DNA of 64,000 nt, from NCBI GenBank assembly GCA_963169915.1, contig CAUJEM010000075.1:1-64000 (forward strand), written 5' to 3'. Below the pieces are notes generated by a model. That model was given only the letters and a program-made list of their open reading frames with translations. It was not told where the DNA came from and searched no databases. This DNA is from Myxococcota bacterium. Lineage in GTDB: Bacteria; Myxococcota_A; Polyangia; Polyangiales; Polyangiaceae. The translations under genes were made by a program, and so were the position numbers. Positions 20,381 through 28,779 of the stretch are shown here, piece by piece (the first letter of the stretch is position 1; the number at the start of each line of letters is the position of its first letter).

Positions 20381-23300
20381 ATGCGCGCACCGTCCACGGC
20401 TCCTCGCAGCGTCGCTCGCCTCCTCGCCCTCTTGTTCGCCAGCGGCAGCATCGCCGCCGTCGCCTGCTCGGGGGCGCCAGAACAAGAGGCCGCCTCCGAT
20501 CCCGCGCTCGACGCGGGGTCCGGCGCCACGGCGCCGCGCGCCATCACCCAGACGCTCGGGATGGTCCAGGCCATCACCGCCGAGCACCCGCTGCTCGAGC
20601 GCGTGTTCGCCCAGCGCGCGGAGGTCGGGCTCGCGCCGCGCGGCGGCGCGCTCACGCTCCGTCCCGCGCTGCCCAGCTTGGCGCTGGACATCGACGTGGA
20701 GGCGCCGCTCAGCGCAGCGGGCACCCTCAGCGTCAAGCCGCTCGGGGATCGTGAGGGGGTGCGGCTGACGCCGGAGCTCGCGGCGGACGCGCAGGCGGAG
20801 CTGACGGACGACGGCCGCGCCATCTACCGGCGCGCCTTTGGCAGCGCCGACCTCATCCGCACCGCGTCCAAGGACGGGCTGCAAGAGACGCTGCTCATCA
20901 ACGACGCCCAGAGCCCCGACGCCTTCTCCTGGAAGCTCGAGCTGGGCTCGGCGCTGGGCGGCGCGGACGCGGACGGCCAGCCGCTGCGCTCGCTGCGCCT
21001 GCAGCGCCTGGAGGACGAGCGGCTGGCGGTGCTGGACGCGCAGGGCAACGTGCGCGTCTTCATTTCCCGCATCACCAGCGCGGACGCCAACGGCCGGGAG
21101 CTCCCGCTCGTGCTGGAGCTCGACGAGGACGGCACCGCGTTCCTACGGGTGGACCACCACCTCCTCAGCTACCCCGCGGTGGTCAACCTCGGCTTCCAGG
21201 TGCCGCCGCTCGGCGTGCTCGCCGGGCCGCCCCCGCCCACCGTCATCAAGGGGCGCGTGATGCTGCTGGTGGACACCTCCAATTCCATGCTCTTCCGCTT
21301 CCAGGACGACCTAAACGTGCAGTGCGACGGCGACGAGAACTCGCTCTACTGCGACAACAACAACAACTACACCCCGCCCAGCGGCTCGAAGTTCGCTTGC
21401 AACACGGGCGTCGCCTGCACGCGCGCCAACGGCGCGGAGGAGATCTACCGCTGCGCGGCCGGCACCCCCAGCCGCATCCTCGCGACCAAGCGCGCCATCA
21501 CGAACGTGATCATGGCGCAGAACGCCTTCATCGACTTCGGGCTCGGGCGCTTCCGTGAGAGCAGCAGCTGCGCCAACACGGCCTGGTGCTGCACCACCCC
21601 GGTCAACGGCACGACGTCCGGGCGCTGCATGCCTTACGGCAACTACTATCCGAATTTTTTCTCAGGTTCGAGTGACCTCACCTACGGTGGGAACGGCTGC
21701 CCCAGCAATGAGAACACGGGGGGGCGCGTCGTCATCGGCACCGCCCCCTCCTCGGGGCTCTCCATCCTGCCCTGGATGAACGGCACGGAGAACTTCTGCT
21801 CGTCCACGGGCTCCGCCGGCGGCGCGCCTCGAGATCCGGAGCTGCGCACCCCGCATGCCGGAACCCCGCTGGCGCGCGCCATCCGGTCCATGCGGACGGA
21901 CTGGTACGAGCAGTACTGGAACAACCGCAACACCCCCGCCAGCCCCTACTACGACCCCAAGCTGAGCTGCCGCCCCTACGTGCTGGTGGCCATGACGGAC
22001 GGCGTCGATAACTGCAGCCTGGATCCGTCGGACGAGGTGACCAGCCTCCGAGCGGTGGGCGGTGCGGGCAACACCAACAAGCCCATCATCTACCCGCTCG
22101 GCATGGGCAACGTGGGCGGCCTGGACGTCCCCGAGCTCAACCAAATGGCGGTGGCCGGCGGCTCGGGCAAGACCACGGCGCCCATCGCGCAGAACCAAGC
22201 GGAGATCGAGGCCGCCTTCGCGGACATCGTGGCCCGCACCGTCAAGTTCGAGCTGTGCAACGGCCTGGACGACACCTGCAACGACGCGGTGGACGAGGGG
22301 CTCGGCGCCTACCAAGAGTGCGGCGTCGGGCTCCCCGCCTGCGCCACGGGCTCGAGCTGCAACCTCGGCCGCTGCACCTGCAGCACCGACGCCCAGTGCG
22401 GCTCCGGCTTCGCCTGCCAAGGTGGCTTCTGTCGACCTGGCTGCACGGTCGGCGTGGGCGCCTGCCGCCGTGACGGCGTCCGGAAGTGCCAGGCCGATGC
22501 GAACCAGCCCACGGCCTGCTGCGCGGCGGGCGCTGGCGCCAGCTGCACGCCGCTGACGGCTGGCAATCCCTCTACGGAGGTGTGCAACGGCATCGACGAC
22601 AACTGCAACGGCATCATCGACGACGTGCCCGGCGGCTGCCAGCAGACCTGCTTCCCGGAGATCTGCGACGGCAAGGACAACGACTGCGACGGCACCATCG
22701 ACAACTCGCCCGCCGGCGTGGGCCTGAGCTGCGGCACGAACATCGGCGTCTGCTCCCCGGGCACCACGGCCTGCGTGAGCGGCGCCATCGTGTGCCAGGG
22801 CGGCACCCAGCCCGGCGCGGAGGTGTGCAACGGCCTGGACGACGACTGCAACGGCGTCGTCGACGGGATGACGCGCACCTGCTACGGCGGCCCCTCCGGT
22901 ACGGAGGGTGTCGGCCTCTGCCGCGGCGGCTCGCAGGCGTGCACGGCGGCGCTCGGCAGCGGCACCCCGAACTGGGGCACCTGCGTCGGGCAGGTGCTGC
23001 CCACCACCGAGCTGTGCAACGGCCTGGACGACGACTGCAACGGACTGGTGGACGACATCCCCGGCCTCGGGCAGAGCTGCTGCCCCGGGGGCAACTGCGG
23101 CGCCGGCGTGTGTCGCGCGGGCACCTTGCAGTGCCAGGGCGGCTCCGCGGTGTGCGTCGGGTACGTCGGCCCCAGCCCAGAGACGTGCAATGGGGTGGAC
23201 GACAACTGCGACGGCACCGTGGACAACGTCCCGGGCGCCGGGTCACAGTGTTGCTCGGGCGGCAATTGCGGCACCGGCATCTGCACCTACGGCACGCAGC

Positions 23301-28200: not shown

Positions 28201-28779
28201 ACGGGCAACACCTGGGTCTACGCCTACGAGGCCTCGCGGCTGGACTCGGACGACTCGAGCCCTGGGCTCGACAGCGCGCGCGCCTGCTCGAAGCCCAACG
28301 TCATCCCGTGGACCAGCGTCAACCGCGCGTCGGCGGCCGCCGCCTGCGCCGCGGTGCGCAACAGCGCTGGCCAGCCCATGCGCCTCTGCACCGAGGCAGA
28401 GTGGCAGGCCGCGTGCCTCGCTGGCGGCTCGGTGTCACCGGCTCGCTGGTCGTACGCCACGGCGCCCACCACCTACACGGCGGGGACCTGCAACGACTCG
28501 GACGCGCTCACGCCGGAGGGACTGTGGCCCACCGGCAGCGGCGCGCAGTGCTACGCCAACTGGGGAGCCAACGCGCGGCTCTGGGACATGTCCGGCAACG
28601 CCAGCGAGTGGACGGGCTCGTCCGTCACCGTGGACGGCAAGACCTACTACCGCGTGCGTGGCGGTGGCACGGGCAGCTTCCCCTTGGCGACCACCTGCGA
28701 CTTCAACTTCGTGCTGCAAGAGCAGTCCTTCCGCAGCCATGAGCTCGGCTTCCGCTGCTGCTCGGACGCCGCTCCCTGA
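25210..28779 (+). CDS. MopE-repeat lipoprotein with C-terminal formylglycine-enzyme-like domain
   Basis: 1189 residues. GTG 25210 overlaps the previous TGA (GTGA), with GGGAGG 6 nt upstream. Signal peptide with lipobox ATGC (Cys29), a Gly/Ser/Asp linker, then 12 copies of the CDGxDNDCNGxxD motif joined by Cys-rich spacers (typically DPxxCGxCxxxC). The last ~220 residues match the sulfatase-modifying (FGE/SUMF1-like) fold: MRLCTEAEWQAACLAG, the metal/substrate region with LWDMSGNASEWTG, and C-terminal HELGFRCC. In this family such domains are often binding (C-type-lectin-like) rather than enzymatic. It is likely a partner of the preceding giant protein. No anchor other than the lipid is seen. 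Confidence 0.93.
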   Translation: MSARTWLGPAGLALAAWTALVALGTATGCSTEAYCFHCEDGADAGGSGGSGGSGGSGGFAGTLIIEDGGADADANDADGPNCEGVDLQSDPDHCGTCGNSCRFKYPGGFGTCVAGQCQLDACAPGFFDLDGDGLSCECEATGSAEVCDGKDNDCNGQTDEGFDLDNDVDHCGACNNPCPDLEHSTKACAAGQCVYQCEDGYGRPGGSSDPTRGCPYQCPVFPPVAETCNGVDDDCDGAIDNGQPGAGISCTAPCPGGQCEGECRPGLTACTSTGTGIVCVGGIGPTPEICDGLDNDCDGQTDEGFDLQTDVLNCGACNRTCQSGVQCVGGQCQFTCPAGYKDIDGDPANGCEYACPVLPERGETCNGIDDDCNGTIDDAPSDVGGSCASDCPAPAPCVAGGNCSPYAISPHTGSCYGACRTGGVYTCVAGVRVCHNPNQKLQETCDGVDENCDGRIDEGFDQQNDPLNCGGCGSACQRSNTLAMTCSGGVCGSVVACQPGFADLDGNPANGCEYGCPVNPPVGETCNGKDDDCDGVVDNNVGGLGQSCTSSCPAPDPCIAAGTCTSAISTNTGGCYGVCATDGVTSCSSGSPTCNHPNRKTEICNGLDDDCDGLIDEGFNTQTNPSHCGACGNVCNLPGTATAGCSAGKCTVVTCTAGYKDLDNNPNNGCEYRCPVFPTQAESCDGKDNDCNGLIDDSPSGVGVSCQTNCPGGNCRGECTPGTTSCVGGAITCAGGQGPTLEVCDEKDNDCNGVVDNGFNTNTDPNNCGRCGTVCTLPNAVSGCAAGACTILACKPGYGNPNGQASDGCERTCEVYPTGPEVCDGKDNDCDGLVDAADPDMGSVSNFCTQTGPCAGAAPTCQGSNGWVCNYQQRDARIEVQPNGSLAVVETKCDGFDNNCNGQVDETFSQKGSACSVGKGRCAGTATYTCKADGTGLECLATPNPLDARDEACNGLDDNCDGSIDERVVTGSYTCYTGPGGAGAHACAGWIDPMVKLTGNTWVYAYEASRLDSDDSSPGLDSARACSKPNVIPWTSVNRASAAAACAAVRNSAGQPMRLCTEAEWQAACLAGGSVSPARWSYATAPTTYTAGTCNDSDALTPEGLWPTGSGAQCYANWGANARLWDMSGNASEWTGSSVTVDGKTYYRVRGGGTGSFPLATTCDFNFVLQEQSFRSHELGFRCCSDAAP

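Follow-up and report, generated by a model that had tools for sequence, protein, structure and literature searches.

The closest described counterparts of the locus reported here are the outer-membrane exchange receptors TraA and TraB of Myxococcus. TraA combines a distal recognition domain with Cys-rich repeats. The two receptors are encoded by an overlapping two-gene unit in which the first gene codes for a surface protein carrying a MYXO-CTERM anchor (PMC11980579), and the same is true of genes A and B of contig CAUJEM010000075.1, which lie within the stretch of 64,000 nt analysed in this study (the window; contig positions 1–64,000, forward strand, with positions below given as window positions). 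However, whereas TraB is an OmpA/β-barrel protein, the product of gene B is a predicted N-terminally lipidated stalk with a head of the formylglycine-generating enzyme (FGE)/lectin type, in which no outer-membrane β-barrel or OmpA domain was found above the Pfam cut-off. The stalks here are furthermore built from PF11617 repeats, the fused relatives carry back-to-back signals and the repeat counts of the partners match. By analogy with TraA/TraB, the A–B pair may be regarded as an overlapping receptor/adhesin pair of the myxobacterial type that is assembled from different parts and obeys a rule of matched lengths. Our reading is that A and B probably form a single two-legged complex on the surface of the outer membrane, with a von Willebrand factor A (VWA) head and a lectin-fold head held at matched height.

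Several other systems share single parts with this pair. CglB of Myxococcus gliding motility is a surface VWA adhesin with a metal-ion-dependent adhesion site (MIDAS), from a myxobacterium (PMC12282271), but the accessible part of its description, on which the comparison is based, mentions neither a stalk of PF11617 repeats nor a MYXO-CTERM nor a lectin-fold lipoprotein as partner. VWA heads with large insertions are also found in the Gram-positive pilus adhesins SpaC and PitA, in Mfa5 and in the vWFA domain of LapA, which differ from A in stalk, anchor and partner. The head of B shares its fold with Treponema denticola variable protein 1, with other variable proteins of diversity-generating retroelements and with FGE, although neither a template repeat of such an element in the window's own genome nor the FGE catalytic cysteines in B are present. 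MopE/CorA of methanotrophs share the PF11617 motif and the surface location, but contain a small PF11617 region as opposed to the 26 motifs found here, and have neither heads nor a partner, whereas the copper ligands are missing from the present stalks. The component parts (VWA, PF11617, MYXO-CTERM and the FGE fold) are of known kinds, while the pair itself, the rule linking its two lengths and the polyprotein version have, as far as we found, not been reported previously: no description of any of them was found in the literature, of which only part was accessible, and the A–B pair is apparently a so far undescribed family across Myxococcota.

Conserved pairing and matched repeat numbers

The initial annotation described two giant exported proteins of 1610 and 1189 residues, encoded by genes overlapping at GTGA and containing 14 and 12 repeats, and this was confirmed: PF11617 gave 14 matches to A (E 4.2e-54) and 12 to B (E 1.3e-55), in both cases above the Pfam cut-off. 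The arrangement is not due to chance, because it is found twice more in the same genome and in dozens of other genomes. The own genome holds three A–B pairs with 14/12 (window), 8/6 and 5/3 repeats. The second pair lies on the same contig (C75) and starts 34 kb downstream of the window pair (A, 62791–66420; B, 66417–68645; 8/6 repeats), and the third is located on contig C8 (A, 25510–29031; B, 29028–30452; 5/3 repeats). Among 183 genomes from the order, 56 gave strong matches to the B head, and among 377 from the phylum 62 did; many of the genomes contain several copies of the pair. A contig scan, which was swamped by common FGE-domain genes, placed a Sandaracinus and a Byssovorax metagenome-assembled genome among the relatives, Byssovorax belonging to the window's own family. 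From these matches 110 loci were parsed, and adjacency was counted only at the 91 loci where the upstream DNA sufficed. At 86 of these, A lies directly upstream of B, as separate genes in 60 cases (58 of them with the exact 4-nt overlap) and in one open frame in 26 cases. A genome survey for the same order, which the initial annotation had named as a check, thus shows that it recurs across Myxococcota, fusions included. No conserved neighbour genes other than A and B were found around the loci, which gives no hint of a pathway.

The repeat numbers of the two partners are closely matched. Repeats were counted with a profile trained on the loci, and in the main set, which comprises 63 pairs whose A head is complete and in which the counts range from 3 to 20, the relation is nA = 0.99 nB + 1.9 (r = 0.98, n = 63). 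Changing the score threshold gave r of 0.96–0.98 with n = 80 (0.977 for the 80 pairs), and counting by a plain pattern or by cysteines gave 0.94 in each case. Shared ancestry fails to explain the match, because independent contrasts retain r = 0.97 on the tree of B heads as well as on that of VWA domains. Of the 39 informative contrasts on the B-head tree, 37 have the same sign, so that gains or losses of repeats in one stalk go along with changes of nearly the same size in the other. Genome identity likewise fails to explain it, because none of 20,000 trials in which partners were shuffled within genomes matched the observed fit. Between the window pair and its 8/6 sister pair there is a difference of six repeats in both genes, and the extra block is best placed as an insertion 4–5 repeats from the head of A and 5 repeats from the head of B. 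Counts also predict counts (R2 0.97) better than spans predict spans (R2 0.93).

In all 26 fused proteins, two helices flank an Arg-rich loop at the junction between A and B, the first helix resembling that of MYXO-CTERM and the second being followed by a [GA]C lipid site, as in ...GGGGCVC...LPWVWLGAALLLLALRRRSSVGVRVLRRGAVATSLGAAALAIPGTG/CSVDPYC of locus L062; at two fused loci the helices were missed by the automatic call, and their junctions were judged by eye. Separate and fused states have switched at least 5–7 times on the trees, and 14 of the 26 fused genes have no plausible internal start for B. An assembly artefact was ruled out, given 26 loci in many genomes, a 2-contig assembly (L097) among them, and a codon position bias that is unbroken across the junction. 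Since a single chain contains two membrane signals in its middle, cleavage by myxosortase and signal peptidase II is the simplest reading, and the fused A–B proteins look like polyproteins from which, as predicted from their sequences, a transmembrane hairpin would be excised by two peptidases. For MXAN_5598 of Myxococcus, an internal MYXO-CTERM that probably stems from a gene fusion has been described, beside a remark on the traA/traB overlap (PMC11980579). The doubled signal with a lipoprotein partner is, as far as we could find, new.

Domains, anchors and heads of the two proteins

The features of the two genes are collected in the table. The first product had been described as a VWA domain, repeats and a C-terminal anchor, and this domain order is borne out by a structural model of the VWA region with matches of Z about 20, by PF11617 and by TIGR03901. 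Pfam did not detect the VWA domain in window A itself at E<=1, and the region was therefore modelled with 42 homologues; PF00092 (VWA) was matched in the A homologue of locus L057 (E 1.5e-9). The AlphaFold model (pLDDT 80, pTM 0.84) has the adhesins SpaC, Mfa5 and LapA among its VWA structure matches. Thr and Asp of the MIDAS do not vary among the 42 homologues, which had been chosen by DxSxS, so that conservation of DxSxS itself among them is by selection; when 17 further A proteins were examined, 13 likewise carried DxSxS at the VWA domain. The TIGR03901 cut-off of 20 bits is passed by each of the three A proteins that the own genome encodes (25.4 bits in the window, 26.3 and 23.8). Most relatives of A have an ordinary signal peptide followed by the VWA domain or another folded domain, whereas a possible N-terminal lipobox (PS51257) is found in the window and at loci L013, L123 and L130 and not in most other A proteins. 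On the strength of this pattern, A of the window's subfamily may carry lipid at both ends. In the third pair of the own genome (L014 5510–10452, contig C8), a Gly-rich N-terminal region precedes the VWA domain. An in-frame GTG at 20333 is a possible alternative, upstream start of gene A.

Window B has only PF11617 and PF03781 (FGE-sulfatase; matched once, E 3.2e-9) above their Pfam cut-offs, and it is among the 80 of 95 B proteins that satisfy the lipobox pattern PS51257. The C-terminal part of B, comprising three repeats and the head, was modelled with 62 homologues (pLDDT 94), and the head matched FGE, CalU17 and Treponema variable protein 1 with Z of 18–20, the best score being Z 20.3 to 2y3c (T. 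denticola variable protein 1), compared with Z 18 to FGE. The initial annotation called this part sulfatase-modifying-like, which holds for the fold and for PF03781 and not for FGE catalysis: at neither of the two catalytic positions, after the Gly-Gly motif, which we take to correspond to C336/C341 of human FGE, is there a Cys in any of the 62 relatives, and an active FGE was rejected. A variable protein of a diversity-generating retroelement was also rejected, as the own genome contains no template repeat, the nearest sequence being only a 67% identical paralogue. Because the FGE Cys positions are empty and there is no template repeat, the B head is read as a predicted binding domain of the C-type-lectin fold, as modelled. 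In the fused proteins of L069, L073, L090 and L142 the chain extends some 150–300 residues beyond the FGE-like head.

Calcium binding by the stalk repeats is plausible, although putative. Sequence searches for solved structures of the stalks gave none for A (E<=1) and none for B (E<=0.1), and in the structural search with the B model the head matches filled the list, so that the stalk part was barely probed. The own genome encodes two further PF11617 proteins without a VWA or FGE-like head, in one of which (L015 4003–7746) Cys repeats of the type NCDGxxxNGCETN follow one another over a long stretch (the other is L016 6982–8787).

The 12-bp hairpin said to close the operon is perfect (arms 28797–28808 and 28815–28826, 12 of 12 positions paired), while its role as a terminator is unproven, as no T-run follows.

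Features of the A–B gene pair and of the paralogous gene A in the window
Feature	Position	Strand	Content or basis
Gene A, 1610 aa	20381..25213	+	Signal sequence, ~250-aa N-terminal region, VWA, 14 PF11617 repeats, Gly/Ser linker, MYXO-CTERM
Signal sequence of A and possible lipobox AAVA/C, residue 29	20381..20467	+	Sequence; pattern PS51257
VWA domain of A, complete MIDAS (DTSNS...T...D)	21197..22243	+	AlphaFold model, structure matches, alignment
Stalk of A: 14 PF11617 repeats, regular ones spaced 57–65 aa	22256..24813	+	Pfam
Gly/Ser-rich linker of A, stalk to anchor	24796..25070	+	Sequence
MYXO-CTERM anchor of A: GGGGCACR, transmembrane helix, RRR	25097..25210	+	TIGR03901
GTGA overlap, 4 nt	25210..25213	+	B start and A stop
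Gene B, 1189 aa, GTG start	25210..28779	+	Lipoprotein, 12 PF11617 repeats, FGE/C-type-lectin-like head
Predicted lipoprotein signal peptide of B, lipid Cys29, then conserved C-x3-AYCFxC	25210..25296	+	PS51257; motif kept in relatives
Stalk of B: 12 PF11617 repeats, spacing 57–81 aa	25633..28110	+	Pfam
FGE/C-type-lectin-like head of B, without FGE catalytic cysteines	28180..28776	+	PF03781, model, structure matches
Inverted repeat 3' of gene B, 12 bp, loop 6 nt	28797..28826	+	Sequence
Paralogous gene A, first 403 codons in window	62791..64000	+	Runs on to contig base 66420

A proposed two-legged surface complex

In the proposed complex, A would be held at its C-terminus by MYXO-CTERM, with a lipid on the Cys and the helix removed by myxosortase, and B would be held at its N-terminus as a lipoprotein. 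The Cys/Asp-rich PF11617 stalks would be stiff, probably stabilized by disulfides and calcium, and rooted at the outer membrane, with the MIDAS-type VWA of A and the C-type-lectin/FGE-fold domain of B at their far ends pointing outwards. The stalks could run side by side because the anchors sit at opposite ends of the chains, and the heads would be level because the repeat numbers are equal. In the fused relatives, the hairpin of MYXO-CTERM helix and lipoprotein signal would be cut by myxosortase and signal peptidase II to give two lipid-anchored halves in a 1:1 ratio. The heads may bind a ligand or each other in adhesion or recognition; a putative adhesive role fits the predicted VWA MIDAS and the modelled lectin-type fold, whereas the role in predation that was suggested at the outset is only a guess. 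The two-leg model accounts for the pairing, the fusions and the matched counts together, and the kept adjacency, the fusions and the near-equal repeat numbers lend good support to the earlier suggestion of a single extracellular complex of the two products.

The correlation of the counts might also arise if A and B do not touch and each has to clear the same surface layer, such as a capsule or exopolysaccharide, so that both lengths follow the thickness of what lies outside. The residue spans of the two stalks do correlate (r 0.96), and both proteins are surface-anchored. Such a layer is nevertheless an unlikely cause, as pair lengths within a single genome are very different (12/11, 5/4, 11/9 and 19/17 in G036), partner swaps within a genome destroy the match, and the repeated fusion of the A and B genes is left unexplained. 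Moreover, counts stay at most one or two repeats apart also where the units of A and B are unequal in length, as in L152 (a contig of G407), where ten A repeats are exactly 48 aa apart and the B units measure about 79 aa and the counts are still 13/12. Such differences in unit length, which occur in several clades, also stand against a purely genetic origin of the match, in which concerted expansion or conversion between the adjoining arrays would equalize them with no functional meaning. The repeats are indeed related (A–B unit identity 40% on average and 67% at most), yet window A units are closer on average to other A units (47%), the window B stalk alternates two unit types of different length, and the expected outcome of unequal exchange between the two genes is deletion or fusion, not an equal extension of both; we regard this origin as very improbable.

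Two further explanations concern the function of the parts. The name of the family, Cu-binding_MopE, and the 26 Asp/Cys-rich motifs suggest metal storage or uptake, with the CNGxDD motifs binding copper or another transition metal, and the initial annotation had proposed CNGxDDxCNGxxD as a candidate Cu site. In MopE, copper is bound by two His together with a Trp-derived kynurenine (PMC3423442), however, and PF11617 spans only a small part of MopE (PMC6189053). With 2 His and 1 Trp in the 815 residues of one stalk and 7 His and 2 Trp in the 870 residues of the other, these ligands are nearly missing, and a Cu site in the repeats was rejected. Uptake would explain neither the matched lengths nor the heads, and a storage or uptake function as a whole has very little probability left to it. 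That B is instead an enzyme of the formylglycine-generating type, modifying A or a neighbour, would agree with the PF03781 match and the FGE-like fold, but with both catalytic positions devoid of Cys throughout the relatives it is extremely unlikely.

Some observations weigh against the two-leg model or against parts of it. The contact between the A and B stalks is something that we infer. A start codon that could give B alone is present in 12 of the 26 fused genes, and 15 of the 95 B proteins fail the strict lipoprotein pattern PS51257. In the own genome, which is 91% complete, MrtX proper was not found above its cut-off (a CPBP match reached 21 bits compared with a cut-off of 180), the related MrtC, known from Chondromyces, not having been searched. 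In addition, the possible N-terminal lipobox on A of the window's subfamily would keep the VWA end close to the membrane, which misfits a simple outward-pointing head; if this lipobox is real, these A proteins have an attachment at either end, and the simple picture has to be revised.

In conclusion, this study describes a conserved pair of stalked surface proteins whose repeat numbers match over a range from 3 to 20, which is a rare quantitative sign of physical pairing obtained from sequence only and gives a direct way into the question of what determines the length of stalks on a bacterial surface. We tentatively suggest, at somewhat less than even confidence, that the pair represents a new class of machine, in which two co-translated stalks with opposite anchors are zipped repeat by repeat so that both must lengthen together, often as a polyprotein with a hairpin cut by two peptidases. 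The fusions provide a natural test of the internal processing of MYXO-CTERM and of a lipoprotein signal in the middle of a chain, both of which are little-studied steps. Many surface proteins of myxobacteria, which are predatory and social, have no assigned role, and the A–B pairs could serve as a series of devices for recognition or adhesion that differ in their reach.
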